Positions 8,385 through 24,758 of a stretch of DNA of 27,999 nt are shown here, piece by piece. This DNA comes from a virus, in the IMG/VR virus record IMGVR_UViG_3300031227_000313, positions 1 through 27,999 of that record; one strand, given 5' to 3'. Below the pieces are notes generated by a model. It saw only the letters and a list, made by a program, of their open reading frames with translations. It did not search any database and was not told the DNA's origin. The first letter of the stretch is position 1; every line of letters starts with the position of its first letter. Both the position numbers and the translations under genes were made by a program.

Positions 8385-8567
8385 ATGGCAAAAACAACTA
8401 GAGATGATGAGCAAAGTTTTTATATATGTGGACAATGTAAGACTAAGATTTATTATCTGAAGTCTGAAAGTCCTCCTATGCCTTGCCCAGAATGCAGTTG
8501 GAATCATGGAGCCAGAGATCTGTATGATGTTCCTTCTACTATCAAACTTGATTTAACTAAGTATTAA
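8385..8567 (+). CDS. Small zinc-ribbon protein, 60 aa
   Basis: Two CxxC knuckles, CGQC (Cys15, Cys18) and CPEC (Cys34, Cys37), are separated by 15 residues, the usual layout of a small zinc ribbon like those in rubredoxin-type or RNA polymerase-type ribbons. The N-terminus is short and polar and the C-terminus (VPSTIKLDLTKY) has no further motif. The ribosome site before ATG 8385 is poor. The gene lies between scaffold and decoration-like protein, 11 bases before the next start. It probably binds one zinc ion and acts as a small structural or nucleic-acid-contacting protein. A head role is inferred only from neighbours. Confidence 0.75.
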   Translation: MAKTTRDDEQSFYICGQCKTKIYYLKSESPPMPCPECSWNHGARDLYDVPSTIKLDLTKY

Positions 8568-9077: not shown

Positions 9078-9995
9078 ATGACAAGAAATGAACAATCACA
9101 GCTTTATACTCCTATTTACGATGAGTTCTTTATGTCAACATTCAATGAAGAAACTCAGGTTCATACTAAGCTTTTCAAAGCGATAGATGACCACACCAAA
9201 GAGTATAAGGAAGATTCAATTAGTGCATTGGGTAGATGGGTTGATGCCAATGAAGGCGAAGGCGGAGGCCAGGAAACCCCAGTCTTAGGTTATGCTAAGA
9301 CATACGAACCCGAAAAGAAATGGAAGAAACTCCAGATTACGTTCGAGGCCGTAGACCAGGATGAATATGCTTTAGCAAAAAAAGAAGGCGATGTAAAAGC
9401 AATGGGTAGAGGCGGTAGAGATGCCGTTGAAGCCGCAACTTCTGCTATACTAGCTGACGGTTTTGCTACAGCATGTCCTGATGGGCAGTATCTGTTCTCA
9501 AATTCACATCCTAAGAACAGCGAAGAAACAGGAACAGTGTACGACAACTTGCTTAGCGGTGCTCTTTCTCACACTTCGTTAGAAGCCGCAGAAACTCAAA
9601 TAGCTCAGAACGCCTTTGACCCTAAGGGTATTCCTATTGCTATGGGCGAAGAAGCTTATTTAGTTCATCCCCCAGAGTTAAAAGGGCAAGTTTTTAGATT
9701 GTTAAGTGATAGAGCCACTGAACAACCTGACACTACTCTAAGAAACGCCAATAGATTCTCAGGTAAATATACACCAGTTGAATGGAGGTATCTTTCATCT
9801 GCATTAGAGGGCTCTGCAACTATGTGGTTTATAGTTTATCCGGCTCTTAATATGCTAAAGATAATCTGGCAGGCAAGACCTCACTTTACCTCTTGGATTG
9901 ACAACGACTTAGAGCTTTACAACTTCAAGGGTAGAATGATATTTGACACTGGTGCATCTGATTGGAGAAGTGTTTGGGGTTCCACTGGATTATAA
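9078..9995 (+). CDS. Major capsid protein, HK97 fold, Mu gpT-like
   Basis: The 305-residue protein follows scaffold and decoration genes with a strong AGGAGG site. It shows features of Mu gpT-like major head proteins. These are an N-terminal arm (residues 1-40), an E-loop-like charged Gly-rich part (ANEGEGGGQETP), LFSNSHPKN around 139-147, and SHTSLEAAETQIAQNAFDPK. Also present are a strand AYLVHPPELKGQVFRLL and C-terminal WFIVYPALNMLKIIWQA and ASDWRSVWGSTGL. The SHP motif, the hPPxL strand and the closing WRxV are typical. It builds the icosahedral shell. There is no protease or N-terminal extension beyond the arm, so the separate scaffold gene is needed. It may be the client of the phage GroES-like protein; that is inference. 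High confidence in the call. Confidence 0.88.
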   Translation: MTRNEQSQLYTPIYDEFFMSTFNEETQVHTKLFKAIDDHTKEYKEDSISALGRWVDANEGEGGGQETPVLGYAKTYEPEKKWKKLQITFEAVDQDEYALAKKEGDVKAMGRGGRDAVEAATSAILADGFATACPDGQYLFSNSHPKNSEETGTVYDNLLSGALSHTSLEAAETQIAQNAFDPKGIPIAMGEEAYLVHPPELKGQVFRLLSDRATEQPDTTLRNANRFSGKYTPVEWRYLSSALEGSATMWFIVYPALNMLKIIWQARPHFTSWIDNDLELYNFKGRMIFDTGASDWRSVWGSTGL

Positions 9996-10020: not shown

Positions 10021-11706
10021 ATGAAGAAACAATTTTTCGTGATAGCTCTGTTGATTATAGGTTCATTTATTATTGGATTTATGTCTAGTGTAAGTTACGC
10101 TACTGTTATTCATGATGATGGTATATTGATTGTCGATAACGATGGATATATCTATGGCAAAACAGATGGTGCGATTGAATTAGGTAAATCCGGTAATGAG
10201 TGGGAGGATATTTACACAGATTCTATCACTCTGGGTGGTGTAGCAAAGACCTCTTGGGGAAGCGTTGTAACGCCTTGGGTTGACAATGGTACTTACATTG
10301 CTCCCACAGGCGCTCCTACGGCTGTTAAAATCTATCTCAATGGTAATGGTATTTTTATTGGCGATATAGATGCTGATAGCTATATAATGGAGAATGACGC
10401 TCAACTTGATAATGCTGTAAATAATACTGTTACTTTAACTGAAAATGATGATATTTTCTCTATTGTTTTTGCTACAACTGATATTACGCTTTCAGCGAGT
10501 GATGGTAGTATTGAGCTTTATCCTGAAGCAGATGCTACAGAAGGTACAGTTGATTTTCTAACTGGTGGCGACACGAATGACTTTTTGTATGTCAAAACCA
10601 CTTCTAATGTACCTATACTAGCAACTTCAGGCGGTTGTAATCTTTCAATAGTTCCTGATGGTGGAACACTTGCTTTAACAGGTATCTTGACTGTAAGTGG
10701 GGCCCAGACTTTAACAGGAGCTACAACTCTAACATCAGTTATTATAGGGGATGATACTTATGACGTTGTTGTTGATGACGAGCATAGGTTTACTTCTAAT
10801 GATAGTGATGTTGTGGTTGATGTTTTTGCAACTACTGATAAAGATGCTATCTTGCAGTTGACAGCGGACCTTTCAGCAGACAGTGGCGACGAATGGCAGC
10901 TGAAGAATGATGATGCTGATAGTAATGCGTTGTTATTCATCAATGATACTGGCGGTTCACTTGCTACTATTATGGAGTTGTCTGTTGGTGGTGTTTTAAC
11001 TTTAACCAGTAATTTGGTCGGTGAAAACGCTGATGTGTTAGATAACGCAACTGATGATACATTTCAGTTTTCGTCTAACGATTTAGATACAACTATTAGA
11101 GCTTATGGCTATGAAGAGAAAGATGCCATTTTAAGATTGACAGCAGATGAAAGCGATAATGATGGTGATGAATGGCAAATTAAGCACGAAGCTACTGGTA
11201 ATCATTTACAGTTTGTTACTGATGCTTCTGGCTCTGATGTTGTTCTTGCCTACTTTAACGCTTCAACTGGTTTTCATCTTGGCGGAGCTTTAGGTGTTTG
11301 TGGAGTTACAACACTATCTGGCAATGTCAATATGTATCAGGCAGATTTAACTATTACTGATGCAACTCTTGGTGATAGCTTAACTTTTGATACTTCAGCT
11401 GGTGATTTAGCTATAGCAGGTGATTTGTCAGTTGATGGTGATGACATCAATGCCGATGGTAACTTAACTATTGATGCAGAAGGTGGAACACTTGCATTGC
11501 AAGCCGGAAGTACTGACATCTTGACTGTTGGTGGTTTAGGTGTATGTGTAATTGGTAATATAAGTAACACTGGTGATGTGTATGTTGGTGGAGATATTAC
11601 TGCTGCTAGTATGAAATCTGGTACAGACCAGGGTGATGCTGGTGCAGCTGCTGGTGAGCTTTATTACGACACTAATGATGATGATACTATCAAAATGGGC
11701 ACTTAA
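10021..11706 (+). CDS. Secreted-type beta-repetitive fibre-like protein, 561 aa
   Basis: The start ATG 10021 has an excellent AGGAGG site, so the N-terminus is reliable. It encodes a clear Sec signal peptide: MKK, a hydrophobic core FFVIALLIIGSFIIGF, and a cleavage site after Ala27 (SYA-TV). The mature protein is a run of Thr/Asp/Gly-rich beta repeats of the sort seen in phage fibres (GNLTIDAEGGTLALQAG, LTITDATLGDSLTFDTS). It has two copies of an about 80-residue module with KDAILxLTAD and GDEWQxK. The C-terminus (GAAAGELYYDTNDDDTIKMG) is a common fibre ending. It shares GDxxDxLYxxTTSN with the 1681-residue fibre. The gene directly follows the capsid gene and is followed by a hairpin. A virion surface or fibre protein is likely; the export signal is unexpected for one. 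Confidence 0.7.
   Translation: MKKQFFVIALLIIGSFIIGFMSSVSYATVIHDDGILIVDNDGYIYGKTDGAIELGKSGNEWEDIYTDSITLGGVAKTSWGSVVTPWVDNGTYIAPTGAPTAVKIYLNGNGIFIGDIDADSYIMENDAQLDNAVNNTVTLTENDDIFSIVFATTDITLSASDGSIELYPEADATEGTVDFLTGGDTNDFLYVKTTSNVPILATSGGCNLSIVPDGGTLALTGILTVSGAQTLTGATTLTSVIIGDDTYDVVVDDEHRFTSNDSDVVVDVFATTDKDAILQLTADLSADSGDEWQLKNDDADSNALLFINDTGGSLATIMELSVGGVLTLTSNLVGENADVLDNATDDTFQFSSNDLDTTIRAYGYEEKDAILRLTADESDNDGDEWQIKHEATGNHLQFVTDASGSDVVLAYFNASTGFHLGGALGVCGVTTLSGNVNMYQADLTITDATLGDSLTFDTSAGDLAIAGDLSVDGDDINADGNLTIDAEGGTLALQAGSTDILTVGGLGVCVIGNISNTGDVYVGGDITAASMKSGTDQGDAGAAAGELYYDTNDDDTIKMGT
10749..11270 (+). repeat. Two copies of an about 80-residue module in the fibre-like gene
   Basis: Residues about 243-325 and 337-415 repeat the same pattern: a D-rich lead, FxSND.D, a (K)DAIL(Q/R)LTAD segment, GDEWQ(L/I)K, then LxFxxD..GS. 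Copies differ at most positions at the DNA level, so the duplication is old rather than recent. Confidence 0.65.
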
Positions 11707-11717
11707 TCTAATAATAT

Positions 11718-11744
11718 GGGGGGAGCTTGAAAACTCCTCCCTTT
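11718..11744 (+). terminator. GC-rich hairpin with short T run after the 561-aa gene
   Basis: GGGGGGAG (11718-11725) pairs with CTCCTCCC (11734-11741), 8 pairs including one G-U, around an 8-base loop, followed by only TTT. The short T run makes it a weak terminator or attenuator, or a 3' end protector of the abundant capsid/fibre mRNA. The next gene begins 13 bases later, so read-through is expected. Confidence 0.5.
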
Positions 11745-11756
11745 GAGGGGATAGAT

Positions 11757-11858
11757 ATGAAAGGCAAGCCAAAAAGAAACGGTAGTGGTAAAGGTACAAG
11801 AGCTAATAGAGGCAGAGGCGGTTGTGCAACTACCAAAAAGAGGGGCAAGGGAAGATAA
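11757..11858 (+). CDS. Very small basic Gly/Arg/Lys-rich peptide, 33 aa
   Basis: ATG 11757 has a GAGGGG site 7 bases upstream, and the stop overlaps the next start as TAATG. The peptide starts MKGKPKRNGSGKGTRANRGR and ends GGCATTKKRGKGR; 12 of its 33 residues are Lys or Arg, there are no acidic residues and one Cys. Such composition suggests an unfolded nucleic-acid-binding or condensing peptide, or one that binds an acidic protein partner. It lies between two genes with signal peptides but has none itself. The strong ribosome site and exact coupling make chance unlikely. No family is recognised. Confidence 0.65.
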   Translation: MKGKPKRNGSGKGTRANRGRGGCATTKKRGKGR

Positions 11859-12631
11859 TGAAAAAAATACTCATATTACTGCTTTTGAGCTTCTTTGTAT
11901 GCTCATCTGCTATAGCTACTGAAGCAGTATATAATAGAGATAGCAGTTATGATGTTGTAGGGTGGCACGTTTGCGTGGCTGACAATGATATAGACGCTAC
12001 GGCAGAGCTTCTAACAGAGCTTGATACAACCTATCTGCAATTAACTACCGCTTATGATACGCTTGAGGTGGTTAGTGCAAGCGCTTTAGATATAACTCAA
12101 AGTATTACTGTTTATGGTATAGACAATAACAGTAAAAAGTGTTCGGCTACATTTGAATTAAATGGGACTGCGGCGGTTTGCGGCCCTCAATATTTTCAAT
12201 TTGTTGATTATGCTGTTTTAAATGCCGAATGCGCTGGAGTTATTACAGTAAGAAGAGCAACTAATGATGTGTTTATCGTTTCCGTTCCAATAGGTCAGCT
12301 TAATTCTCAAGCAGCTCAACATTTCAATGGTGAATATAATAGCTTTATAACTAGTTGGAAGTGCGGCGTTACTACGACTACAGGTTCAGTATTGTTTGAA
12401 TTACGTTGGTATCCAGATGATAGTGATAGCCGATGTTTCTTAAATGGTTATATTCTATTAGATGAGATTTACATAGATGGTGCAGTTACATCTCCATATA
12501 ATGCGCCTCCAGTGGTCTTTCCTCAACCAATCAAATGCCCGGCGGGGGGTTGGCTGGCGGTGTTTGGGACAGGTGGAGCGATTGATTGTGATGGGGTAGT
12601 AACTATTCAAGGATATGACGCACGACCTTAG
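11858..12631 (+). CDS. Exported Cys-rich beta protein, 257 aa
   Basis: The correct start is ATG 11858, overlapping the previous stop and preceded by AAGGGA; an upstream TTG at 11822 would bury the signal peptide. The N-terminus MKKILILLLLSFFVCSSAIA is a classical signal peptide with a cleavage site after Ala20 (AIA-TE). The mature part is beta-rich with eight Cys (in HVC, KKC, AVC, AEC, WKC, SRC, IKC, IDC). An even number of cysteines fits disulfide formation outside the cytoplasm. The last third (YILLDEIYIDGAVTSPYNAPP and WLAVFGTGGAIDC) has the feel of a virion surface protein. Position between fibre-like and adaptor genes suggests a virion or receptor-related role. I do not recognise the family. 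Confidence 0.75.
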   Translation: MKKILILLLLSFFVCSSAIATEAVYNRDSSYDVVGWHVCVADNDIDATAELLTELDTTYLQLTTAYDTLEVVSASALDITQSITVYGIDNNSKKCSATFELNGTAAVCGPQYFQFVDYAVLNAECAGVITVRRATNDVFIVSVPIGQLNSQAAQHFNGEYNSFITSWKCGVTTTTGSVLFELRWYPDDSDSRCFLNGYILLDEIYIDGAVTSPYNAPPVVFPQPIKCPAGGWLAVFGTGGAIDCDGVVTIQGYDARP

Positions 12632-12640
12632 GAGAAACAA

Positions 12641-13294
12641 GTGAATAGAGGAGAAATAATATCAAAGTTCAGAGAAGAAAATCCCGAAATAACTGATAGA
12701 GTAATAACAAATACTGTTTTAAATGGGTGGTGCAAAGCGGCAGATAAAGAGATATGCGCAGAGGCAAGATGTATCGTGTCTAACGAACCCGAAACAATCT
12801 CTACAACAGAAGATGATGCTTATTGGGATTTAACAGCTCAGATACCAAAGTTTTATGACATAGATGAATACCCTGGCGGCGGAGTTGCCTATGATGATGA
12901 TAGACTTAAACTAACAACTATTGCTCAATTAGATGAAGAAAGTTCCGGGTGGAGAACAAGAAGCTCGGGAACCCCTAAAAAATACTTTAGACGTGGTCAA
13001 TATCTTTATGTTGACAGACCTGTTAATAGTGATGCGGAAGATATTACTATTTATGCTGTTTACATTTCAGATGATTTTAACTCTAACGACAAAACTCCCT
13101 ATAATCAGCTTTCTCATTTAACACCTTTCCACGATGGCATCAATAAATACTTGCAATGGCGAGCAATGGGTAAAGTAGGCAAAGAAAAGGAAGCTAAATC
13201 AGCTCAAAAAGATTATATGAATTATGTTGCTTGGATGAAAAAGTTGATACGGGGAGGTTCACATAATGTTATATTTTTCACACCGCCTCATTAG
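12641..13294 (+). CDS. Putative head-tail adaptor/connector protein
   Basis: The start is GTG 12641 after a good AGGAG site. The 217-residue protein has a helical N-terminus (GEIISKFREENPEITDRVI), then a beta part with a pattern frequent in phage adaptors. That pattern is LTTIAQLDEESSGWRTRSSG, followed by TPKKYFRRGQYLYVDRP and a strand (DITIYAVYI), ending in a helix (YLQWRAMGKVGKEKEAKSAQKDY). The Ld...gWr..sGtP..y...g..l.vdrP motif is characteristic of connector proteins that sit under the portal, although I cannot name the exact family. It has no signal peptide, in contrast to its neighbours. The C-terminal 29 bases overlap the next gene. In the virion it would form the ring joining portal and nozzle. 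Confidence 0.65.
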   Translation: MNRGEIISKFREENPEITDRVITNTVLNGWCKAADKEICAEARCIVSNEPETISTTEDDAYWDLTAQIPKFYDIDEYPGGGVAYDDDRLKLTTIAQLDEESSGWRTRSSGTPKKYFRRGQYLYVDRPVNSDAEDITIYAVYISDDFNSNDKTPYNQLSHLTPFHDGINKYLQWRAMGKVGKEKEAKSAQKDYMNYVAWMKKLIRGGSHNVIFFTPPH

Positions 13295-15638
13295 TAAATA
13301 TGTAACATATTTGTTAATTGCTTTATTTATGGCTATCTCTGCGCCTGCTGTTGCTCAAGAAAGCATATCTGCAAAAAATCAGATTTATGTATTAGATGAT
13401 TTTTCTGGAGGATTAAATGTAAAGGCTTCAGAGTTTAAATTAAAGCCAAATCAAGCAACCATAGTAGAGAATGTAAGGCTTAATAGAGAGCTTGAAGTAT
13501 TATCAAAGCGAACTAATTTGCGCTTATACGGAACAGCCGATGCGACAGAAGCTATTACTGGCAATCATCGTCTTTATAAGAAAGACGGCACAAAAGCGCT
13601 GATTGTTTGTCATGGTAATGAGATTGAAGTTGGAGATGATAGCGCTGGCACAACGTCAACCATTCTTAATTTAGCTTCTGGTGATTATAGATGGCAATGG
13701 GCAACATGGCACGATATAGCAATAGGATGCGATGGATATAACCCTCCTGTCAAATATGATGGCAGTTCTGCCTCAGCAACATACTTAGGCTCTTGCTTAG
13801 CGCTTGATGCGGGTAGCGGAGCGGGCCCTGACGGCACTTATACATACAAAGTAACCTTCTATACTGCCTCTTATGAGGTTTCGTTTGATACGGCTTCTAA
13901 TTCGCTTACTGTATCGGATAAAGATATTGATTTATCTATGATCCCTATTGGGCCCGATACATTTGGCGGAGAAGATGTTGTCGGCAGAAAAATATACAGA
14001 ATTAAAACCGCGGGAAGCACTTATTATTTATTATCTAATGGAACAATAGCCAATAATACAGCAGTAACTTTAACTGATTCCGATGCGGACGGAGAGCTTT
14101 CCGCTACTGCGTTAAGCCCTGGCTATACTTATGCCCCGCCAAAAGGTCTATTGCTCATAGTTCATAAAAATAGATTATGGTTTGCTAATAATCCCACATA
14201 TCCTTCACGCCTTTATTATTCAGAAGACGCAAGCCATGATTACTTTGTATCTGATAATTATTTTAATATAAGAGCTGATGATGGCGATGAAATAACCGGT
14301 GTCTTTAACTTATTAGGAATATTAACTGTTACTAAAAATGGTTCGTGGATTAAAGCATATACAGAAAGAGATGACCCTGATACAGACTGGGAAATATCTG
14401 ACTCCTTTAGCCCGGTAGGCAGCGATGCTTATTATTCAGCAGTCAGCACGCCATTAGGCATTATGTTTCTTGATACAAGTGGTATATATATATTTAATGG
14501 TCAATATGCGACTCTTTTATCTGACGATGTTGCCCCTGAAATGCTTAACATATCAGAGTCTAATTATGCAAATTGTTGGGCGGCTTTTCATAAAAATGTT
14601 TATTATCTTGCCTATACTTCCGGTACATCAGGTTCATCTGTAAATGATAGAGTTCTTATATATGATATTATAAATAAATCTTTTTCTATTGATATACTCG
14701 ACATAAGTTCTTTTTGTGTGTTTTCAGCTCAAAGCGATAGAGATACTTTGTATGCTGGTTCGTCAACATCAGGAAACATTTTATCGTTTTCAGAAAGAGT
14801 TAATGAGGTTACTCACAGAAGACACGAAGATTTTTCAGGAACATTCTGTAATGCCAGGTATCAGCCAACTCGTTGGGGTGGAAAAATAAATGACGCTGTA
14901 TTAGAAATGGCATGGTCGGTTACTATAGATTCCGGTTGGGATAGCTGGGGTGCTACATTAAACGATTTGCCAGGTAGAATTGACAGACCTACTACAAGTG
15001 GTACTTATGTATCACAAGTGCTTTATATTGGTGCTACAGAGCTTGATAAATTATATTGGAATGAACTGATACCGGCAACAGGTGGCGATGTTACATTTAA
15101 TATAAGGGGTGGGGCTACAGCGGCAGCTTGTGCAGCGGCAACGTGGAGTTCTGCGTTTAGCAATCCGTCTGGTTCAGATATATCAGGTGAAACTGCTTAT
15201 GATTATATTCAATATAAAATAAACATGACATCAACTGATATGGATTATTCACCTTATGTTTATCGTTCTAATAGGTCTTATGTGGTTAGATTAACTTATG
15301 AAAAAGAAGGAAGCTCATACGAAACAACAATTCCTTTGCGTTGGATTTCAGGGTGGAATGATTTACAAGCACCAGGGTATAAAAAGATATTAAGAAAACT
15401 ACATGCTTTATATGACACGGATTCTACAGGAAAGATGACAATTACATTTGAAAACTTTGAAGGTGATGAAGATGAATTTGAAATAGACTTGAATGATAAC
15501 CCTAAAAGTTATATAGAATATTTTACAGAAGGCGGTTTGGTCGGAGAATTTTTTAAGATAAAAATAGAAGAATCATCGTTAAGCGATATTCAAATAAATA
15601 AACTAATTTTAATATACGATATTGAACCTTTAATATGA
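13266..15638 (+). CDS. Tail nozzle/DNA-stabilisation-like protein with a Sec signal peptide, 790 aa
   Basis: ATG 13266 follows GGGGAGG and overlaps the adaptor gene. The first 30 residues form a signal peptide: basic RLISKY, hydrophobic YVTYLLIALFMA, cleavage site APAVA-QE after Ala30. The mature protein opens with VLDDFSGGLNVKASEFKLKP, NQATIVENV and a SKRTNLRLYG element. This DF.GGln....l.pnqa...NV......l..R pattern marks short-tail nozzle and stopper proteins (T7 gp12 and P22 gp10-like groups); the length is close to T7 gp12. The body alternates beta strands with short motifs such as WATWHDIAIGCDGYNPPVKYDG and KNRLWFANN, fitting a beta-propeller. It would form the lower tail tube and hold packaged DNA. 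An export signal on such a part is not expected. Role is inferred from motif, length and place after the adaptor. Confidence 0.72.
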   Translation: MLYFSHRLISKYVTYLLIALFMAISAPAVAQESISAKNQIYVLDDFSGGLNVKASEFKLKPNQATIVENVRLNRELEVLSKRTNLRLYGTADATEAITGNHRLYKKDGTKALIVCHGNEIEVGDDSAGTTSTILNLASGDYRWQWATWHDIAIGCDGYNPPVKYDGSSASATYLGSCLALDAGSGAGPDGTYTYKVTFYTASYEVSFDTASNSLTVSDKDIDLSMIPIGPDTFGGEDVVGRKIYRIKTAGSTYYLLSNGTIANNTAVTLTDSDADGELSATALSPGYTYAPPKGLLLIVHKNRLWFANNPTYPSRLYYSEDASHDYFVSDNYFNIRADDGDEITGVFNLLGILTVTKNGSWIKAYTERDDPDTDWEISDSFSPVGSDAYYSAVSTPLGIMFLDTSGIYIFNGQYATLLSDDVAPEMLNISESNYANCWAAFHKNVYYLAYTSGTSGSSVNDRVLIYDIINKSFSIDILDISSFCVFSAQSDRDTLYAGSSTSGNILSFSERVNEVTHRRHEDFSGTFCNARYQPTRWGGKINDAVLEMAWSVTIDSGWDSWGATLNDLPGRIDRPTTSGTYVSQVLYIGATELDKLYWNELIPATGGDVTFNIRGGATAAACAAATWSSAFSNPSGSDISGETAYDYIQYKINMTSTDMDYSPYVYRSNRSYVVRLTYEKEGSSYETTIPLRWISGWNDLQAPGYKKILRKLHALYDTDSTGKMTITFENFEGDEDEFEIDLNDNPKSYIEYFTEGGLVGEFFKIKIEESSLSDIQINKLILIYDIEPLI

Positions 15639-18600
15639 AAAAAACTATATTTTATTTTCTCATAATTATATTTTTATTAAGCATACCCTCGTGTATATAT
15701 GCCGGAACTACAGTTAAGGGCGAGCAAATAATGGATTTTGAGGGAAAATCTCTGCCTATCCTCAATGAACGTTTACGCAAGATAGAAGATAAGCTTTGGG
15801 AAATAAAAACAGATGATGACGATACTTCTCCTGGATATTTAGAAACGAAAGTTAAGAATAGCGTTGAGATAGACAATGGTTCAATACAGCTTAAAAATGA
15901 CTCCGCCGCCCCTTCCAATAAAACAGTTTACGGCAAAACAGAAGCTGGTGTTCAGGGTTGGAAGTCTGAAGAGCAGACTCTTGATGATGTATGTACTCTC
16001 GGTGCTACTACAAATCTTACTTTATCCGTAGGCTCCTTCTCCGCAGACGGTGTATGCTCACGTACTCATTTATCAACTGTCTATGATGCCTTTATCGGAA
16101 GAAATGCTTATATTACTGATGATGTTATTATATACGATAGCCTTACCGTTACGGGATTAAGTTCTTTAGTCGGAAATGTTACCTGCACAAGCGACCTTGC
16201 CATAAATGGAAGCGACCTTACTTCTACTGGTGATTTAAGATTTAAAGTTAATGGTGATAGTGATGACTACTTATACTTAAACACTACATCAAACATAGCA
16301 TATCTCTTACCAGTAGATGACTCTACACATATAATAGGTAAAACAGGTCTTGTATTTGCAGAGGGTTGGTTTGATAAGATAACGACTGATAATGACTTAA
16401 CACTTAATCCATTAGGCAATGATGTAATATTCTATAAAGGTGGAACAGCAGACGCAGGTACTACTGAATACAACTCGAGAGATGCAGAGTTTCTGGGAAG
16501 TGCGTTGATTACGACTAGCAGTTGGATAAAGCGTTTCCCAACTGGAATAGATGAGGAAATATATTGGAGAAGCTGTGCATCTAGTTCTGATGGCAGTACT
16601 TTAATAGTTGGTGTATCTGCTGGGCGTTTGTACATTTCCTCTGATTATGGAGTTACCTGGACAGAACGACAACCTGCTGGGGATGTTGATGAAGCTTGGT
16701 ATGGTCTTGCATCTGATAGTGATGGCAGTAATTTAATAGTTAGTGGTGTTTATGGTAGAGTTTGGACTTCAGTAGATTCAGGAGCAAATTGGACTGAACG
16801 TCGACCAACAGGAGAAGATGTTGATAGGTGGTGGGATGCTGTAGATTCTGATTCTGACGGAAGTAATTTAATGGCTGCGATTAATGGAAAGCGTTTATAC
16901 ACATCAGCTAACTCTGGTGTAGACTGGACGGAAAGACAACCTGATGGAAATCGTGACAGAGGTTGGAGAGTTGCGGTTTCTAATGATGATGGTAGTTTTT
17001 TGATGGCTGCATGGGGACCTACAGGTAGGGCATATACATCAGATGACTCTGGTGCTACTTGGACGGAAAGACAGCCATTAGGCGATATAGGTGAAAGCTG
17101 GTATAGTGGGGCTTGTGATAGTGATGGTAGTAATTTAATCATAGCTGCTACTAATGGGCGTATATACACATCAGCTAATTATGGTGTAGATTGGACAGAA
17201 AGGCGACCCTCTGGATATGATGGTAATTTTGATTGGAGAAGCTGTACGTCTGATGCTGATGGTAGTCATCTTTTTGTCTGTCGATTTAATGGGCGTGTGT
17301 ATAGTTCATCAGATAGTGGTGTTACTTGGGCAGAAGAACAACCATCTGGAGATAATTATATAGATTGGCATAGTGTTGCTTGTGGTAATGATGGAAGTAA
17401 TGCTATTGCAGTAGCTAGCGATACGACTGGTGGGGTTTGGACTTTGCAAAATACTGCTGTAGATAGAAAAATAACCCAACGCTTAATACCTGAAGGCAAC
17501 TTAGCCACACCAAAATATAGACTTGGCTTTTTAGATAATAATGATAGTGAATTCATTAGCTTTGACGGACTTAATCAACGCCTTGGTGTTGGAGTAATTG
17601 ACCCTGATACAAAGACTGAAATCTTACACGCAGGTACTCAATTAAAATTAAGCTATGACGCTACTAATTATATAACACTTGCAACGCAAAGTGATGGCGA
17701 TCTTACGCTTGATAGTAATAAAACAAGTTATGACTTAGATTTTGGGGATGGTAACTTAATTACTACAGGCACTTTTGAAGCAGGTCCAACAGGTCTTGAT
17801 AGCTTATGCGTAAGAGATAAAATAAGTACAGTTGGAAATGCTTATATAGGTGGTAATGCTTATATTACAGGCGACGCTACAATAGGCACAGGACAGCATT
17901 TAACTCTAGGCACAACTCAATGGGATAATGGGGCAGATAAAATTGATGGCGAGCAAATAGCTGATAATACTATTGATGAAGATTCTATTGATTGGGGTAC
18001 AGGAACAGATCAAGTAAGTGCCGCAGATGTTCCGGTTCCAGTTTTAGACACACCAACTTATGATAATTTAGGGGATGCGTTTAAACTATTCACTTCAGCA
18101 GGAAGAATATCTGGTGGAGCAATTACACAGCACGGTGGTGACGCAACTGTAGATGTTGCTGCAGGTCAAGGTGTTATAAGAATAGCTGATGATGATACAA
18201 GCGCTATTAAGTTCTTCACTATACCCGCAACTACTGAGATTGGTGTAGCAGCAGGAGAAACTAAGTATATTGTAGTTGATTATAATACAGGCACAGAAGC
18301 TATTACAGTAACAGCGTGGGCAGCCGAAACTTGGGATAAAGATACAGAGTTTCCTTTAGGCAAAGTTGTTAATGATGGTGGCGAATTACATATTATAAAT
18401 AATCCTTGGTGGGTTGGTGATGCTTTTACAAACGTAATAGAAAGAATGGAAGGGATAGCCTATTTTGCAAGAGATGAACGTGGTGGTGGTTTACTCTTAT
18501 CCGTTTCTGATGAAACCAATAGAGAGATAGCAGTTACAGGTGGAACAGTTTGGAGTAGACTTAATGAATTTGAAACTACCACACTAGATACTGATGTTAC

Positions 18601-20680
18601 TGGAACATTTCATTTGGATTATGAAAGTGGTGATGGTGTATGGACAGGAAATGATGTAACTGCGTACACAGTTGACCAATGGAATAATGTAACTACACAC
18701 GCTTTAGTTAATCTAACAAATAATTACTATATGAATATGTGGGTTTATGTTGAGCCAGACGCAGTTGCAGGCGAGCAAGTGCATATGGTATATGGACAGA
18801 GCCAAAACAAAAAGTCTGCTGTTATTGAAGCTGAAGCTCCACCAACAAATTTACCTTCTCACATTACAGAAACTTGTATACTTATAGGAAGAATAATTAT
18901 AAAAGAAGGTGTTAATGCACCAGTATCGGTTCAAACAGTATTTACAACTCAATTCACAGCTTCACAAGCAGCAGATCATTGTAACTTAACAAACCTTGCT
19001 TGGGGGTCATCTTGTCATACAGGTACAGCGTCTAATTTTGCAGGATTTGATGGAGCTGGTGATGCTGAAGAATACCCTGAAGTTAATTATCTTTTAACGG
19101 ATGGAACAAGAGCTTTAGCAGGTAATTGGGCTTTAGGGGGATACAATCTTACAGGTGGAGGTTCTATTGCTGGTACTGATTTAACTCTTTCAGGTGACCT
19201 TGCTCTTAATGGCGGAGATATTACTTCAACTTCAAGTAATTTGAGTATTCAATGTGGAAGTCAAACTACTGCACATCTTGCTATAGGTTTTCCTGGTGGA
19301 AGTTGGACTGTTTATCCAAGTCTAGGTGGTAATTATAGATTTGGCTATTCAAGTAAAGCTTGGTTGGAAGGATGGTTTTATAAAATAGCTTCTGATGGCG
19401 ATTTAACTTTAGACCCTGCTACTAATAATGTTATATTAGATAATGCCAATCTACAAATTAAAAGCAATTATGAATTACGCTTTTATGACAACGGAAACTA
19501 TGTAGGATTTGAAGCCCCTGCTTTAGCTGCTGATAAGATATGGGTTTTACCAAATGCTGATGGAACTATTGACCAAGCATTAAAAACAGATGGTTCAGGT
19601 AATTTAGGTTGGGTGACTGTTGTTGGCGGAGGCGACCTTTTAGCAGATGGCTCTGTACCTTTAACAGCAGATTGGGACGCAGGGAATAGTTTATACGATA
19701 TAACTGCCGTAGAGTTTAAAGGTGCATTAAAAGGAAACGCAGATACAGTAACAAATGCTACGCTTACTACAGCTTTAACAGTAAATACAGGCACACTAAC
19801 CTTAATTGCTAATGCCGCAAATAATTCTGTTTTAACTTTAAATGCTGGTGCTTCTGCTATCTCTGGTATGAATACTGGCGATAATACTGTATGCACATCA
19901 GGGGCAGCCACAACTGCTGAAACCTTAAAAACAGCAAGAGCAATAAATGGTATAGATTTTAATGGTAGTCAAGCTATAACAGTAACCGCAGATGCTAATA
20001 CACTTAGTAACACTACTCTTAAATCTACAATATTGGCTTCTTCATTAACTTCAGTAGGAACAATTGACTCATTAGTAGCTACCACAGCAGACATAAACGC
20101 AGGAACGTTTGATGGCATAGTAGGTGGAACTACTCCCGCCGCAATTACAGGCACTACAATAGCAACAAGCGGTGCAAATGATATGACTGTTGCTAATGGT
20201 AATCTGGTAATAGGAACTTCTGGCAAGGGTATAGACTTCTCTGCTACTTCAGATGTTGGTGGTATGACGAGTGAGTTATTAGATGATTATGAAGAAGGGA
20301 CTTTTACTCCTGGTGTTTCTTTTGGTTATGGAACTACTGGGATAACATATATGGCAACTTATACGTTTGGTGCTTATACTAAAGTAGGGAATATGGTTCA
20401 CGCAGAAGGTAGAGTGTTGCTATCATCAAAGGGTTCATCTACTGGGGCAGCAAGGGTAACTGGCTTACCATTCACAACAAAAAGCGGCAATCGTCAAATA
20501 ACAGCAAATGTAGCTTTTAGCGTTGTAAGCTTTGCTAATCAATTTGAGTGTATAGTAGAACCTAACAATACAACAGTATATTTACAAGAAATTACTGAAG
20601 CAGGAGCAACTTCAGCACTAACAGACGCTAATTTTGCAGATATAAGTCAGGTATGGTTTAGCATAACTTATTCATTGTAA
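15635..20680 (+). CDS. Giant tail fibre with signal peptide and seven-repeat Asp-box propeller, 1681 aa
   Basis: ATG 15635 overlaps the nozzle stop as ATGA; no strong ribosome site is seen, so it depends on coupling. The N-terminus MKKTIFYFLIIIFLLSIPSC continues IYA-GT, a signal peptide probably cut after Ala23. Next come VKGEQIMDFEGKSLP and a short coiled part. Residues about 295-608 are seven repeats of about 45 residues with DGS and S.D.G..W.E (BNR/Asp-box), a likely seven-bladed propeller. Then follow beta-helix-like Thr/Asp/Gly repeats and a PALAADKIWVLPNADGT segment near 1290 with LKTDGSGNLGWV. A C-terminal domain starting DDYEEGTFTPG near 1550 is common on phage fibres. It is probably the receptor-binding fibre. 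Asp-box propellers can bind or cut glycans, but no catalytic set is evident. Confidence 0.8.
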   Translation: MKKTIFYFLIIIFLLSIPSCIYAGTTVKGEQIMDFEGKSLPILNERLRKIEDKLWEIKTDDDDTSPGYLETKVKNSVEIDNGSIQLKNDSAAPSNKTVYGKTEAGVQGWKSEEQTLDDVCTLGATTNLTLSVGSFSADGVCSRTHLSTVYDAFIGRNAYITDDVIIYDSLTVTGLSSLVGNVTCTSDLAINGSDLTSTGDLRFKVNGDSDDYLYLNTTSNIAYLLPVDDSTHIIGKTGLVFAEGWFDKITTDNDLTLNPLGNDVIFYKGGTADAGTTEYNSRDAEFLGSALITTSSWIKRFPTGIDEEIYWRSCASSSDGSTLIVGVSAGRLYISSDYGVTWTERQPAGDVDEAWYGLASDSDGSNLIVSGVYGRVWTSVDSGANWTERRPTGEDVDRWWDAVDSDSDGSNLMAAINGKRLYTSANSGVDWTERQPDGNRDRGWRVAVSNDDGSFLMAAWGPTGRAYTSDDSGATWTERQPLGDIGESWYSGACDSDGSNLIIAATNGRIYTSANYGVDWTERRPSGYDGNFDWRSCTSDADGSHLFVCRFNGRVYSSSDSGVTWAEEQPSGDNYIDWHSVACGNDGSNAIAVASDTTGGVWTLQNTAVDRKITQRLIPEGNLATPKYRLGFLDNNDSEFISFDGLNQRLGVGVIDPDTKTEILHAGTQLKLSYDATNYITLATQSDGDLTLDSNKTSYDLDFGDGNLITTGTFEAGPTGLDSLCVRDKISTVGNAYIGGNAYITGDATIGTGQHLTLGTTQWDNGADKIDGEQIADNTIDEDSIDWGTGTDQVSAADVPVPVLDTPTYDNLGDAFKLFTSAGRISGGAITQHGGDATVDVAAGQGVIRIADDDTSAIKFFTIPATTEIGVAAGETKYIVVDYNTGTEAITVTAWAAETWDKDTEFPLGKVVNDGGELHIINNPWWVGDAFTNVIERMEGIAYFARDERGGGLLLSVSDETNREIAVTGGTVWSRLNEFETTTLDTDVTGTFHLDYESGDGVWTGNDVTAYTVDQWNNVTTHALVNLTNNYYMNMWVYVEPDAVAGEQVHMVYGQSQNKKSAVIEAEAPPTNLPSHITETCILIGRIIIKEGVNAPVSVQTVFTTQFTASQAADHCNLTNLAWGSSCHTGTASNFAGFDGAGDAEEYPEVNYLLTDGTRALAGNWALGGYNLTGGGSIAGTDLTLSGDLALNGGDITSTSSNLSIQCGSQTTAHLAIGFPGGSWTVYPSLGGNYRFGYSSKAWLEGWFYKIASDGDLTLDPATNNVILDNANLQIKSNYELRFYDNGNYVGFEAPALAADKIWVLPNADGTIDQALKTDGSGNLGWVTVVGGGDLLADGSVPLTADWDAGNSLYDITAVEFKGALKGNADTVTNATLTTALTVNTGTLTLIANAANNSVLTLNAGASAISGMNTGDNTVCTSGAATTAETLKTARAINGIDFNGSQAITVTADANTLSNTTLKSTILASSLTSVGTIDSLVATTADINAGTFDGIVGGTTPAAITGTTIATSGANDMTVANGNLVIGTSGKGIDFSATSDVGGMTSELLDDYEEGTFTPGVSFGYGTTGITYMATYTFGAYTKVGNMVHAEGRVLLSSKGSSTGAARVTGLPFTTKSGNRQITANVAFSVVSFANQFECIVEPNNTTVYLQEITEAGATSALTDANFADISQVWFSITYSL
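16520..17455 (+). repeat. Seven tandem about 132-135-base Asp-box (BNR) repeats in the fibre gene
   Basis: Each unit encodes W..........DGS.l.......R.y.S.d.G..W.Er.P.G. The seven DGS elements are followed by six good Asp-boxes (SSDYGVTW, SVDSGANW, SANSGVDW, SDDSGATW, SANYGVDW, SSDSGVTW) and one degenerate last one (TTGGVWTL). Similar short DNA words recur (tggac.gaa.g.c..cc), so the units arose by tandem duplication. Confidence 0.85.
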
Positions 20681-20693
20681 ACAGGAGAAATAA

Positions 20694-21245
20694 ATGTTAA
20701 AAATAGTAATAACAATCAGTTTATTATTTGTATGTTCTATCGCTTATGCACAACCTCTTTATACAAAGTCCGTAAGCAATTTTTATGTGATAGACGAAGA
20801 TGGCAAAATGTCTAATACTGAAATAACTAAAATATTTAAAGATGGGGAATATAAAGGCAGTAAAAACAAACCAATTCTTAAAGAGGAAGAGTTTAACGAA
20901 AAAGGTGCTGCTTTATTGAATTTAATAAGCACCAAGGATTTTGGGGATGCTGTTAAACAGGAACACGCTATACTGGGAGTTGGTAATGAAGAAACTGTAA
21001 CTTTTCAAACAGAGATATTACAAGACGGACAGATACAGGTTCGTGCAGCAATACGAACCTTTGAAAACGGTGAAGAAATAGCAAAAACTTTTCACAGGCA
21101 CGTTTTAGCACCCGATACTTCAACTGAAACTTTGAATAAGGAAGTTCAGAGAGTTCAGGATATAGCTGACGCGGTTTGGACAAATGAGGTTATAGAAAAT
21201 TATAATACTAAAAAGGCTAAACGAGAGAAAGAATTAAGTAAATGA
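20694..21245 (+). CDS. Exported hypothetical protein, 183 aa
   Basis: ATG 20694 has a strong AGGAG site. MLKIVITISLLFVCSIAYA is a signal peptide with cleavage after Ala19 (AYA-QP). The mature protein has an N-terminal beta part (SVSNFYVIDEDGKMSNTEIT), a middle with ETVTFQTEILQDGQIQVRAA (paired strands), and a C-terminal charged helix (STETLNKEVQRVQDIADAV and KKAKREKELSK). It follows the fibre gene and overlaps the lipoprotein gene by 4 bases (ATGA). It could be a small tail-associated protein, a fibre chaperone, or a periplasmic protein made during late infection. I do not recognise the family. Confidence 0.7.
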   Translation: MLKIVITISLLFVCSIAYAQPLYTKSVSNFYVIDEDGKMSNTEITKIFKDGEYKGSKNKPILKEEEFNEKGAALLNLISTKDFGDAVKQEHAILGVGNEETVTFQTEILQDGQIQVRAAIRTFENGEEIAKTFHRHVLAPDTSTETLNKEVQRVQDIADAVWTNEVIENYNTKKAKREKELSK

Positions 21246-21484
21246 GATACTTACTGATTAGTATATTACTATTAGGTATATGTGGGTGTGCAAGTTTTAA
21301 ATATGACCAGTATGACCAAGGGTATGAATTAGGCAAGCAACCTGATTTTAGTATAAGGGTAAAGGGCAAGGGCGATGTTAGTGTTAAGAGGCTTCCTGAC
21401 GGAACGGTTGAAACTGATGTGAAAGCTGGGAAACCTTTGATAAATATAAACAACATACCTATAAAGTATGAGAACAACGACTAA
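21242..21484 (+). CDS. Small lipoprotein, 80 aa, possible outer-membrane spanin
   Basis: The start overlaps the previous stop. The N-terminus MRYLLISILLLGICGCAS has a lipobox (I-C-G-Cys16) typical of bacterial lipoproteins, giving a mature peptide of about 65 residues. It is polar, with DQYDQGYELGKQPDFSIRVK, a GDVSVKRLPDGTVETDV beta-hairpin-like part and no helix. Small phage lipoproteins late in the operon next to a membrane-anchored coiled-coil protein (next gene) suggest an o-spanin/i-spanin pair that fuses outer and inner membranes at lysis. Against this, the gene order is reversed from lambda Rz/Rz1 and the mature part is not Pro-rich. Lipoprotein: likely; spanin: uncertain. Confidence 0.75.
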   Translation: MRYLLISILLLGICGCASFKYDQYDQGYELGKQPDFSIRVKGKGDVSVKRLPDGTVETDVKAGKPLININNIPIKYENND

Positions 21485-21493
21485 GGAGATAGC

Positions 21494-21826
21494 ATGAGTG
21501 AAAAGAATGGGCTAAACATAAGGGCGATCGGATTAGTGATAACCTTGTTTATATTGGCAGGCGGTATAATCACGACATTTGCCGTATCGCAGGAAAGGTT
21601 GGAAACAGCGAGAGAAGATATCGCAGAGGTGGATAGCAAGCTTGACGAGTGCGTTAAGGAAATTCAAGGAGATATTAGTAATGTAAAAGATGATATGAGT
21701 GATGTTAAAATAGACGTTGCCAAATTGCAGATTGATGTTGAAATCATTAAAGATGATAATAAGTATATGAGGGGTAGGCTTGATTATATAGTTGAGGAAC
21801 TGGCGAAACAGAATAGGGGTAGTTAA
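21494..21826 (+). CDS. Membrane-anchored coiled-coil protein, 110 aa, possible inner-membrane spanin
   Basis: ATG 21494 has AAGGAG upstream. The first 10 residues are polar, residues 11-30 form a membrane helix (AIGLVITLFILAGGIITTFA), and 33-105 are a coiled coil with heptad-like D/V/I spacing (ISNVKDDMSDVKIDVAKLQI). Inner-membrane spanins (Rz type) have exactly one N-terminal helix and a periplasmic coiled coil, and the preceding gene encodes a small lipoprotein. A tail or holin-associated coiled-coil protein is an alternative. The stop shares one base with the next start. Topology is clear; function is inference. Confidence 0.65.
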   Translation: MSEKNGLNIRAIGLVITLFILAGGIITTFAVSQERLETAREDIAEVDSKLDECVKEIQGDISNVKDDMSDVKIDVAKLQIDVEIIKDDNKYMRGRLDYIVEELAKQNRGS

Positions 21827-22425
21827 TGAAATTCAGCAAACTAACACATAAGTATTTAGATAAATACAGATATAAGATAAGCTATTTAATACAGCACAAA
21901 ATAATGTGTTGCGTGATATTGCTTATGTTATTATTCTTAGTAGCTGATAATAGAGGGTATATAACTAGGGGTGGCTTAAATTTGACTGGATATATTAAGT
22001 CTACAGCACCTCATCAACATTGCCAGTATGATAATTCTTTTGTTACTAAAGGCGAGAAAGTAGATGGTGTATATGGTCCAAATAGTGGAGGTTCACTTGA
22101 AGCGTGTAATGTAAGAGCTACTGGTGGAGCGATTGTGGGTAATTATTTTATTAGCGAAGGGGTTATGTATATAGGTGGTCCTATATCGTGGGGGCACGTT
22201 GTGTATGAACTTGATGAAGATGGCGACAGCACTTATCCTTGGGGAATGTTTCAACTTACTGAGGATGGCATTTCAATTAGCCCTATGAATGGTGGCTTAC
22301 AAATAATGGGCAGTTTTATAGATAAGTCTGGGTTGACTGGTATATCAGATAAGGAAATAGATAGAATTAAAAAAGAACTTTACTTAAATACTACTGGGTT
22401 AGTGGTGTGTGGAGAAATAGAATGA
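21826..22425 (+). CDS. Single-pass membrane protein with beta-rich outer domain, 199 aa
   Basis: The start codon overlaps the previous stop (TAATG), with GGGGTAG upstream. A basic, tyrosine-rich N-terminus (about 25 residues, KFSKLTHKYLDKYRYK) precedes a membrane helix at 26-40 (MCCVILLMLLFLVA), so the protein is likely anchored with its C-terminal part outside the cytoplasm. That part is Gly-rich and beta-like (GGSLEACNVRATGGAIVGNYF, then YIGGPISWGHVVYELDEDG), and ends in a helix (DKEIDRIKKELYLN). Parts of it look like fibre-type beta repeats. No family is recognised; it belongs to the run of membrane and exported genes. Confidence 0.65.
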   Translation: MKFSKLTHKYLDKYRYKISYLIQHKIMCCVILLMLLFLVADNRGYITRGGLNLTGYIKSTAPHQHCQYDNSFVTKGEKVDGVYGPNSGGSLEACNVRATGGAIVGNYFISEGVMYIGGPISWGHVVYELDEDGDSTYPWGMFQLTEDGISISPMNGGLQIMGSFIDKSGLTGISDKEIDRIKKELYLNTTGLVVCGEIE

Positions 22426-22991
22426 GAGAAGTAATTGCGGTAATTATTGTTGTAGCATTAGTGATATTAGGGATTAACTTCTTAATTCCTATGGATGAAC
22501 TCGTTGAAACATATATAGAGGAATATGATAATAACGTTGAACTGTGTGCTGAACATATAAAACTTAAAATACCAGACTTTGACCCCGAAGTAAGTGGTAA
22601 GGGATGTGATTTTGTAATTGTTGGTGCTGATGCTAATTTTTATTTTGTTCCAGTTATATATAAAGATGAGCAACACTACTTTAGAGAGGGTGTTGAGTTT
22701 TCAAGAAAACAGACTATAAATATGATTATCGGTAGTATGTTATATCTAAATCCCAACATACCAGATAGAAAAAATTATTTATTTGTTAATAAAGCATTTG
22801 AAACATTATCTGATTATGATTTAGAAGATTATTTTTACAGAAGATATGCTGTACCGTTAGCAGTTGGAGCACCTAATATAGAAACTAATACTTTGGCTGA
22901 AGAACATTTGAATAAGAATAAAGTAAATAAACATTTACTTGAGGTGAAGAAAAAATGGATAAGAAAAGTCATATTATCGCAGGAATACTAA
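22422..22991 (+). CDS. Membrane-anchored hypothetical protein, 189 aa
   Basis: The start is set at ATG 22422, which overlaps the previous stop as ATGA and has a GGAG site 8 bases upstream; an in-frame GTG at 22407 is possible but less likely. Residues 3-20 are a membrane helix (EVIAVIIVVALVILGINF). The rest is acidic and aromatic: VETYIEEYDNNVELCAEHIK, then KGCDFVIVGADANFYFVPV, FVNKAFETLSDYDLEDYFYR and a basic C-terminal helix. The single N-terminal helix suggests a domain in the periplasm. I do not recognise any domain. The last 37 bases overlap a tiny membrane peptide gene in another frame. Confidence 0.65.
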   Translation: MREVIAVIIVVALVILGINFLIPMDELVETYIEEYDNNVELCAEHIKLKIPDFDPEVSGKGCDFVIVGADANFYFVPVIYKDEQHYFREGVEFSRKQTINMIIGSMLYLNPNIPDRKNYLFVNKAFETLSDYDLEDYFYRRYAVPLAVGAPNIETNTLAEEHLNKNKVNKHLLEVKKKWIRKVILSQEY

Positions 22992-23056
22992 TTCTATTAT
23001 TTGTATTATATATAGCTGGTCTTAACTGGTTATATATATTAATGGTTAATTTTTAA
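22955..23056 (+). CDS. Tiny membrane peptide, 33 aa
   Basis: ATG 22955 has GAGG about 10 bases upstream and lies inside the end of the previous gene. The peptide is a short polar start (MDKKSH) followed by a hydrophobic segment (IIAGILILLFVLYIAG) and a hydrophobic end (LNWLYILMVNF). It is nearly all membrane helix. It could be a small holin or holin regulator, given the adjacent spanin-like genes, but no signature decides this. Ribosome site, overlap and the fact that it fills the gap before the next gene support it as real. Confidence 0.55.
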   Translation: MDKKSHIIAGILILLFVLYIAGLNWLYILMVNF

Positions 23057-23069
23057 AAAGGAGAGAAAA

Positions 23070-24011
23070 ATGAAAAAACTATTTTTAGCTTTATTGTTAG
23101 TTGTGTTTTTAAGTGTTAATGCGCAAGCCGCCTATGAATGGAGACACGCGACGGGAGAAGATACTATTTTGGGTACAGAAAACCCGTCTGATATAGATAG
23201 CGCATCTTATCAAGATATAGTAGCGCCTCTTGATAGAGTATTGGGAACGCACAGGCAAGGGTGTGATTTATCTTATACTGGTGTTTCTGAAATAGCAGTA
23301 GCTACAGGCGAGGTAGTTTGTAGCAATACGGCCGCATCAGTAAGGAAGTTTAGACAAAATACATCAGCGACTTCAGTTGATTGGGACAATATAGATACTG
23401 GAAGTGAAGACACCTCTACTACATATTATATCTATGCTGTAGCTGATGCAGATGCAAATACTTTTACAGTAATGATTTCAGCGTCATCAACATCCCCTAC
23501 GGGTGCAACTTACTATAGACAGCTAGGTAGTTTTTATAATGATTCAGATGGCGATATAGTCGAGGCTTCTGTTTATGCAAATAATTATGTTAAAATGGAT
23601 GCAAACGGAAGATTACCTGCCGCAAACAGCCCAATAAACATATTGCACGCAACTGAATCTTGCATAGCAGCTACTTATGCGGATATGAATGATGGAGGTC
23701 AATGGACAAGCTTTGATATAACCTTAAATAGCACATCAACTATATTAGTAATTGGGGCTGTTGAAATATCAAGCAATAATGCTACCATTGATGGTTATAT
23801 ACAGGTTGTTTATGGTAGCACTCAAATAGCTGAAGCTTATGCTGGTGGTGATGGAGCGGCTTACCCAGCTTATGAGAAAGAAGATATAAACGGAATAGCA
23901 ATCAACGTAGCAGCAGGTACCTATACGATAAAAGCACAGCTTAAAGCTGGTACAGCTTCACTAAATACACTTGGGAAAATCTATTGTACTGTTTATGTGA
24001 TACCAGAATAA
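23070..24011 (+). CDS. Exported fibre-like protein, 313 aa
   Basis: ATG 23070 follows AAGGAG. The N-terminus MKKLFLALLLVVFLSVNAQA is a signal peptide cut after Ala20 (AQA-AY). The mature protein begins YEWRHATGEDTILGTENPSD, then has a motif run that I associate with phage fibre and baseplate-type proteins: GCDLSYTGVSEIAVATGEVV, SVRKFRQNTSATSV, TTYYIYAVADADANTFTV, GATYYRQLGSFYNDSDGD. The C-terminal half is a beta-sandwich-like domain (STILVIGAVEISSNNATIDG and GTYTIKAQLKAG). It is the last gene of the exported block, just before the ejection-type genes. A virion surface protein is the likely role; the signal peptide is unexpected. Confidence 0.7.
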   Translation: MKKLFLALLLVVFLSVNAQAAYEWRHATGEDTILGTENPSDIDSASYQDIVAPLDRVLGTHRQGCDLSYTGVSEIAVATGEVVCSNTAASVRKFRQNTSATSVDWDNIDTGSEDTSTTYYIYAVADADANTFTVMISASSTSPTGATYYRQLGSFYNDSDGDIVEASVYANNYVKMDANGRLPAANSPINILHATESCIAATYADMNDGGQWTSFDITLNSTSTILVIGAVEISSNNATIDGYIQVVYGSTQIAEAYAGGDGAAYPAYEKEDINGIAINVAAGTYTIKAQLKAGTASLNTLGKIYCTVYVIPE

Positions 24012-24023
24012 AGGAGAAAGATT

Positions 24024-24746
24024 ATGTGGCAATACGCAATACCAGCAGCAATACAATTAGCATCCGGACTTTTTGGAGAGGATGAAGACAAATCTAAACA
24101 AACATCTACATCTAAGACTACATATAGTCAACTTCCCGGATACGGTGAATCAGATGCGGCCAGAGGCGGGATGTGGGGTGCCTTACAGGGTGGAAGTGCT
24201 GCCAATATGTGGGGCGCAACAGAAATAGATTGGGATGACATCTATGATACTGCCCTAAAGCAGGTTAATCAGTTTTATGGTGGTAGCGCAATGACCACAG
24301 GCCTTATGGATAAGGTAAAGGCATCTGCGGCCAGAAGAGGCGTATCTGATAGCCCTGCCCTTGAAAATACTATGGCTATGACAGGGATAGAGCAAGCAGG
24401 CGACATATCTGATTTAATAAGCAATCTTACTCAGCAAAAATCTCAATACGCTGAAAGCGCCAGAGGTACGTGGCTTAACTCTATTGCTGCCTTAGCTGGC
24501 ATGAAGCCTCAATATGGGGCAACAGGGTCAACCACGACCACTACAGGGCAACCTGGGGGCGGTGGCGGCATGGCTGACATTGTATCTGGTATTGGTTCGG
24601 GCATTGGTTCAATAATGAGTCAAAAGGGTCAGCAAGATTGGTATGAAAAATTACTAGCACAACAAATGCCTAGCGCTACTCAGCAATCAATAACGGGTAA
24701 CGGAGATTGGAAATCCCCAACAGGGCAGACGTTTAATTATAGATAA
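24024..24746 (+). CDS. Putative internal virion/DNA ejection protein, 240 aa
   Basis: ATG 24024 follows AAGGAG. The N-terminus MWQYAIPAAIQLASGLFGED is amphipathic and hydrophobic, but it lacks the positive charge of a signal peptide. The middle is Gly/Ala/Ser/Gln-rich helix (AMTTGLMDKVKASAARRGVS, DISDLISNLTQQKSQYAESA). A Gly-rich stretch GQPGGGGGMADIVSGIGSG leads into a second hydrophobic helix with GxxxG spacing. The C-terminus is polar. This layout is that of the small internal core proteins of podoviruses (T7 gp14 or P22 gp7 type) that leave the head and form the channel through the envelope. Order also fits, because two further ejection-type genes follow. No homology search done. Confidence 0.6.
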   Translation: MWQYAIPAAIQLASGLFGEDEDKSKQTSTSKTTYSQLPGYGESDAARGGMWGALQGGSAANMWGATEIDWDDIYDTALKQVNQFYGGSAMTTGLMDKVKASAARRGVSDSPALENTMAMTGIEQAGDISDLISNLTQQKSQYAESARGTWLNSIAALAGMKPQYGATGSTTTTTGQPGGGGGMADIVSGIGSGIGSIMSQKGQQDWYEKLLAQQMPSATQQSITGNGDWKSPTGQTFNYR

Positions 24747-24758
24747 CGGAGGTTAATT

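Follow-up and report, generated by a model that had tools for sequence, protein, structure and literature searches.

Sec signals on the tail nozzle and fibres of a short-tailed phage and a possible two-compartment route of virion assembly

The DNA studied here is a linear IMG/VR virus record of 27,999 bases (IMGVR_UViG_3300031227_000313), called the window below, and our subject is a block of 13 reading frames at positions 10021-24011 that includes the genes for the tail nozzle and a tail fibre. Six frames of the block start with cleavable signals for the general secretory (Sec) pathway; another encodes a lipoprotein, and the products of four more begin with a single helix. The virus is a short-tailed phage of T7/P22 architecture, to judge from fold and gene order. 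From the sequences we conclude with high confidence that the signals on the nozzle and fibre are used for export, and suggest, with confidence at or just above even, that the particle may be put together in two compartments, with heads filled in the cytoplasm, the exported nozzle and fibres built in the periplasm, and infectious particles formed only at lysis.

The nozzle gene lies at 13266-15638 (like all genes given here, on the plus strand) and overlaps the adaptor gene at its start. Its product begins with the Sec signal MLYFSHRLISKYVTYLLIALFMAISAPAVA, followed after the predicted cleavage site by QESIS. By sequence the identification is weak: the protein matches phrog_8040 (head closure, expect value (E) 2.7e-5) and, distantly, a phage stabilization protein, with the single sequence as query, viral contigs yielded no nozzle relatives and phage records one weak match, and searching solved structures by sequence was of no help. 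Relatives were then gathered via capsid, portal and nozzle alignments. An AlphaFold2 model from a 23-sequence alignment, which replaced a poor 8-sequence model with a predicted local distance difference test score (pLDDT) of 43, has a pLDDT of 79.7 and a predicted template modelling score of 0.76. The 31 best Protein Data Bank matches of this model in Foldseek are all tail nozzles or muzzles of podoviruses, with E down to 6e-26, and include those of cyanophage A4, T7 (gp12, 2.8e-18), P22 (gp10, 8.9e-11), Sf6 and crAss001. Compared by profile with the P22 gp10 family, the protein scores a probability of 97.9% and aligns from residue 40, directly behind the signal. Both in the window and in relatives, the gene stands directly after the adaptor and downstream of the portal and capsid. 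Judged by its modelled fold, 13266 is a true tail nozzle, and this fold together with the alignment from residue 40 makes the signal an N-terminal extension that is absent from P22 gp10.

Since the search patterns were taken from the mature nozzle, the relatives were sampled without bias towards signals. All 23 nozzles with readable N-termini have a signal; contig L088, which is cut, was left out, and L073, which has no obvious start codon just upstream, was included. The signals are 17-31 residues long, with a mean charge of +2.2 in the n-region and a mean hydrophobicity of 3.1 in the core. At the predicted cleavage site, 21 of the 23 sequences have Ala at -1 and 19 have Gln at +1. In pairwise comparison the signals are 26% identical and the mature parts 59%. 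As far as sequences can tell, such a drift of the signal letters with the physics kept is how a real cleavable signal evolves, and a conserved Sec signal on the nozzle argues against its making and assembly in the cytoplasm. Homologues without the N-terminal 20-30 residues, which had been named beforehand as a ground for doubting export, were looked for, and there are none within the family; distant outgroups alone are without the signal.

Signals were called with an in-house rule that asks for a charged n-region, a hydrophobic core, and an AxA-type site or a lipobox. Calibrated on Escherichia coli, the rule detected 12 of 12 exported proteins and called one of 23 cytosolic ones; among phages it called one of 24 lambda late genes (Lom, which is truly exported), none of 13 in P22, and one, weakly, among 17 in T7. 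Shuffled block proteins passed the strict rule in 0.46% of 20,000 trials. The initial annotation had counted export or membrane signals on 11 of the 13 block genes, and our reading of the sequence and the in-house rule returned the same count, frames and starts. The rule accepts all six Sec signals (10021, 11858, 13266, 15635, 20694 and 23070), which have the positive n-region, hydrophobic core and small residues at -3 and -1 of precursors cut by signal peptidase I, as well as the lipobox gene 21242. The single helices of 21494, 21826, 22422 and 22955 can be recognised by reading the sequence; the rule takes 21494 as a signal and 22422 as a helix, and misses 21826, where the helix begins late. 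Only two frames of the block have no signal: 11757-11858, which encodes a basic peptide of 33 residues, and 12641-13294, the adaptor. It was also borne out that upstream of the block there is a single membrane peptide (922-1050), with no signal on any head or ejection gene of the window, and that the block holds both nozzle and fibre genes, the former by Foldseek and the latter by its match to phrog_5668. For five of the eleven signals (21242, 21494, 21826, 22422 and 22955) an ordinary function in lysis or at the membrane is apparent or possible, 21242 and 21494 being a candidate spanin pair and the other three unassigned membrane proteins, so that our finding rests on the remaining six.

The tail fibre (15635-20680, 1681 residues) starts in an ATGA overlap with the nozzle stop and has the Sec signal MKKTIFYFLIIIFLLSIPSCIYA before GTTVK. 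It matches phrog_5668 (tail fiber) with E of 2.5e-37, an exported relative in contig L003 matches the same family (3.6e-36), and an exported 990-residue protein in G002 combines a beta helix with a Peptidase_S74 fibre chaperone; these matches and domains mark the exported proteins as true fibres. In phages DLP_6 and DSL-LC05, the proteins with homologous fibre domains lack signals. The window fibre also contains a run of Vps10/BNR-like repeats at residues ~331-600 (Pfam Sortilin-Vps10, E 1.7e-8). Immediately behind the capsid gene, another exported protein of 561 residues, E1 (10021-11706), has the signal MKKQFFVIALLIIGSFIIGFMSSVSYA before TVIHD; seven of the eight members of its family have a signal, and its repetitive sequence suggests that it is fibre-like.

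Searches with the capsid, portal and nozzle alignments yielded about 60 related contigs, and a census of signals was made on 28 records. Sec or lipoprotein signals are present in 115 of the 234 genes between the capsid and the ejection genes, versus 2 of the 248 genes from terminase to capsid (Fisher P = 1e-41, uncorrected for the relatedness of the records); elsewhere the counts are 20 of 228 for early or other genes, and 4 of 68 for genes from the ejection module onwards. Clustered into families on the sequence behind residue 35, the proteins show the signal to be a trait of families. Mostly signal-bearing families make up 11 of the 19 multi-member families in the block; there are none among the 13 head, 3 ejection and 19 other families. 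According to the signal calls, fibres and spikes are among the exported families; none of the portal, capsid, adaptor and ejection families is. Signals are missing from these conserved families of the block: the adaptor (0 of 10 members), a protein of 114 residues (0 of 21), ~288-residue coiled coils, a 222-residue protein and a polytopic protein resembling O-antigen ligase. The 114-residue and ~288-residue coiled-coil proteins lie inside the block of most relatives (in L002 at 11161-11502 and 11515-12369), are absent from the window and have no family match. About 18 records of relatives carry the polytopic gene a short distance after the capsid gene; among five such genes tested, two pass the Pfam O-antigen ligase (Wzy_C) cut-off, one falls below it and two have no match. 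Genes of the Wzy_C kind are located at 9786-11024 in L003, 18133-19359 in L056 and 3931-5097 in L051.

In every record that covers the adaptor-nozzle joint, the signal boundary falls at that joint, and the simplest reading of this split is that periplasmic tails would meet filled heads at lysis. The head, portal, adaptor and ejection proteins would be made and assembled in the cytoplasm. Precursors with Sec signals would be made of the nozzle, of the fibres or spikes and of a number of small accessory proteins, and would cross the inner membrane. Signal peptidase would cut the exported precursors, which would fold in the periplasm. The filled heads would end at the adaptor until the inner membrane opens at lysis, when they would meet the nozzle and fibres and the adaptor-nozzle joint would close. 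It is translocation, cleavage, and the time and site of joining that we infer here. If true, two-compartment assembly would break the rule that tailed phages finish their particles in the cytoplasm, and would provide a natural timer by which particles stay non-infectious until lysis. O-antigen is joined to the lipid A core on the periplasmic side. The scheme may explain the presence of O-antigen ligase-like genes amid the fibre genes: receptor-binding proteins, once exported, would otherwise encounter the surface sugars of the host, and the phage may alter the O-antigen so that these proteins avoid binding to it. Such a gene is not essential to the scheme, because the window has none.

Late joining of heads and tails is consistent with P22, whose heads and tail parts can join in vitro (Israel et al. 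1967, cited in PMC3741392). Several points weigh on the other side. P22 without its gp26 needle leaks DNA (PMC8402733), so heads without a nozzle would need another plug, and no alternative plug was identified in this analysis. In MW202554 (L004; uncultured podovirus, Manatee Spring) the fibres have signals and the nozzle does not, and hence the joint at which the split falls is not constant. A scan of 84,980 bacterial and archaeal genomes, which reaches similar sequences only, found no relatives by capsid or nozzle. The cysteines of the exported proteins are without clear pairing, and the signal calls rest on an in-house rule with a small calibration set.

Among the other explanations, we think it unlikely that the nozzle and fibres are inserted into the inner membrane, or held at it, facing the periplasm, with filled heads docking there before lysis and the particle leaving with the broken membrane. 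All distal parts do have signals, the block encodes several single-helix proteins, and proheads of T4 start on the inner membrane; however, a nozzle cut at its conserved AxA-type site would no longer be held by the membrane, and the head would have to reach the nozzle across the bilayer before lysis. It is slightly less probable that the signals are unused, either with slow or inefficient targeting, by which enough protein for normal assembly would stay in the cytoplasm, or with an uncut N-terminus that acts as a membrane-active nozzle tip at infection. This would agree with the general understanding that tails of tailed phages are assembled in the cytoplasm, and with the model, in which the nozzle N-terminus is a separate helix, but it does not fit the strong hydrophobic cores (mean 3.1), the conserved cleavage site or the fact that unrelated exported families have only the signal in common; nor would Ala at -1 be needed in a membrane-active tip.

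A shade more doubtful still is a role outside the virion, in which the exported proteins would block receptors, change the cell surface or exclude other phages, like lambda Lom or conversion proteins. Exported Lom does sit inside the lambda tail region (PMC12309495), and the polytopic gene, which matches O-antigen ligase in part of the cases, is found in the block of most relatives. Such a role leaves unexplained why the signal is on the only nozzle gene found per covering record and on full-length fibres and spikes, and no prophage form was found in the genome scan with capsid and nozzle. An artefact of wrong gene starts or chance hydrophobic N-termini is highly improbable: some starts do lack a clear ribosome site, and L073 lacks a start codon just upstream, but all 23 nozzles and 11 independent families keep the signal, shuffled proteins pass at 0.46%, alignments refute the artefact for the nozzle, E2 and E12 (the last two described below), and the conservation of the cleavage site rules out wrong starts as well.

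The initial annotation had proposed that the signals serve to export tail parts for finishing or decorating virions in the periplasm or at the membrane, to anchor proteins, or to display them on the infected cell. The export of tail parts is strongly supported by the nozzle fold and by the signal and cleavage site in relatives, and finishing of the virion in the periplasm or at lysis is probably the best remaining reading. Anchoring is a weak proposal for the nozzle, whose signal looks cleavable with Ala at -1. Display is possible for the extra exported proteins between the capsid and the adaptor, and less so for the nozzle.

The remaining genes of the block are as follows. Behind E1, the 33-residue basic peptide at 11757-11858 is rich in Gly and Arg; tiny peptides of this kind, with an NRGRGGC-like motif, are also present in G012, L007, L017 and L018. 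E2 (11858-12631, 257 residues) is exported with the signal MKKILILLLLSFFVCSSAIA before TEAVY, and all nine members of its family have a signal with a conserved cleavage site. E2 has three conserved cysteine positions, and the portal and adaptor have conserved cysteines too. The head-tail adaptor-like protein (12641-13294), at the position of T7 gp11 and P22 gp4, matches phrog_399 (E 2.3e-5). Downstream of the fibre, a 183-residue protein (20694-21245) with the signal MLKIVITISLLFVCSIAYA before QPLYT belongs to phrog_6228 (E 1e-13), a family of unknown function. The lipoprotein of 80 residues (21242-21484) with the lipobox ICGC is a candidate outer-membrane spanin, for which relative G004 has a similar lipoprotein with LSGC, and the 110-residue protein with an N-terminal helix and a coiled coil (21494-21826; weak match to the Rz-like phrog_739, E 0.005) is a candidate inner-membrane spanin; by sequence the two look like an ordinary spanin pair. 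Two proteins with one N-terminal membrane helix (21826-22425, 199 residues; 22422-22991, 189 residues) are followed by a 33-residue single-helix peptide (22955-23056) that is possibly holin-like. The last gene of the block encodes E12 (23070-24011, 313 residues), an exported protein with the signal MKKLFLALLLVVFLSVNAQA before AYEW and an Mtd-like second domain (Pfam mtd_2nd, E 3e-6). Every member found of the E12 family has a signal, and E12 and E2 show the same pattern of signal conservation as the nozzle.

On the plus strand of the window, the genes for the small and the large terminase are followed by those for a portal-sized protein (its distant match is annotated as a connector), a probable scaffold, a decoration protein and the capsid, and then by the signal block and the ejection genes. 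Scanning for promoters and terminators gave nothing informative. The major capsid protein (9078-9995; phrog_371, E 1e-10) has no signal and forms the left edge of the block; its relatives, in 22 contigs, are 48-66% identical. At the right edge are the three ejection genes (24024-27997), also without signals, the last of which encodes a phage lysozyme with LysM and is cut off by the window end. Ejection proteins travel inside the phage head. The large terminase (1802-3721) contains a mini-intein at residues ~471-609 (Pfam Intein_splicing and Hint_2, under the curated cut-offs), and the terminase frame of relative L006 has a LAGLIDADG domain instead. Upstream of the terminase genes lies a GroES-like co-chaperonin (1063-1389; Cpn10, E 1e-8). 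A 60-residue protein ahead of the decoration gene (8385-8567) has exactly four cysteines in 24 of 25 relatives and is likely to bind zinc. Contig L025 and the window have portals with 100% identity.

Compared with known systems, the routing of virion proteins through Sec has a parallel in the filamentous phage M13, where the minor coat protein G3p is described as a Sec precursor with a signal sequence (PMC8310372). Filamentous phages are like the window phage in making virion proteins as Sec precursors. They are extruded through the membrane without lysis, have no head, portal or packaging terminase, and their proteins are unrelated to those of the window. Membership in Inovirus was rejected because the window has terminase, portal-like and capsid genes. 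Among tailed phages, late products that use Sec include endolysins with a signal peptide (SP-endolysins; PMC6116005) and lambda Lom (PMC12309495). These and the spanins share the use of Sec with the window proteins, and none is a tail nozzle or fibre. The tails of tailed phages are understood to assemble, and their particles to finish, in the cytoplasm. In the literature, with most subscription papers outside our reach, no earlier case of a tailed phage with signals on its nozzle or fibres came to light, and a two-compartment route is not known for any tailed phage.

In layout the window follows T7 (gp11 and gp12) and P22 (gp4 and gp10), with the adaptor before the nozzle and the ejection genes after it; the gene overlap is as in P22, and the fold and size of the nozzle are as in T7. 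Unlike that of the window, the nozzles of P22 (gp10), T7 (gp12), HMO-2011, CRP-207, DSL-LC05 and MW202601 have no signal, nor do nearly all the late genes examined in these phages. In MW202601, a complete phage with a related portal, no late gene examined has a signal, and the other late genes of HMO-2011 and CRP-207 are without signals save one weak call in CRP-207. MW202554 has a distant relative of the nozzle and carries Sec signals on its fibre, collar and lectin-like genes; unlike the window, its nozzle is without a signal and its head genes differ. Given that the outgroup nozzles have no signal, the nozzle signal is a trait of the window clade, and exported fibres, to judge from MW202554, may be distributed more widely than that clade.

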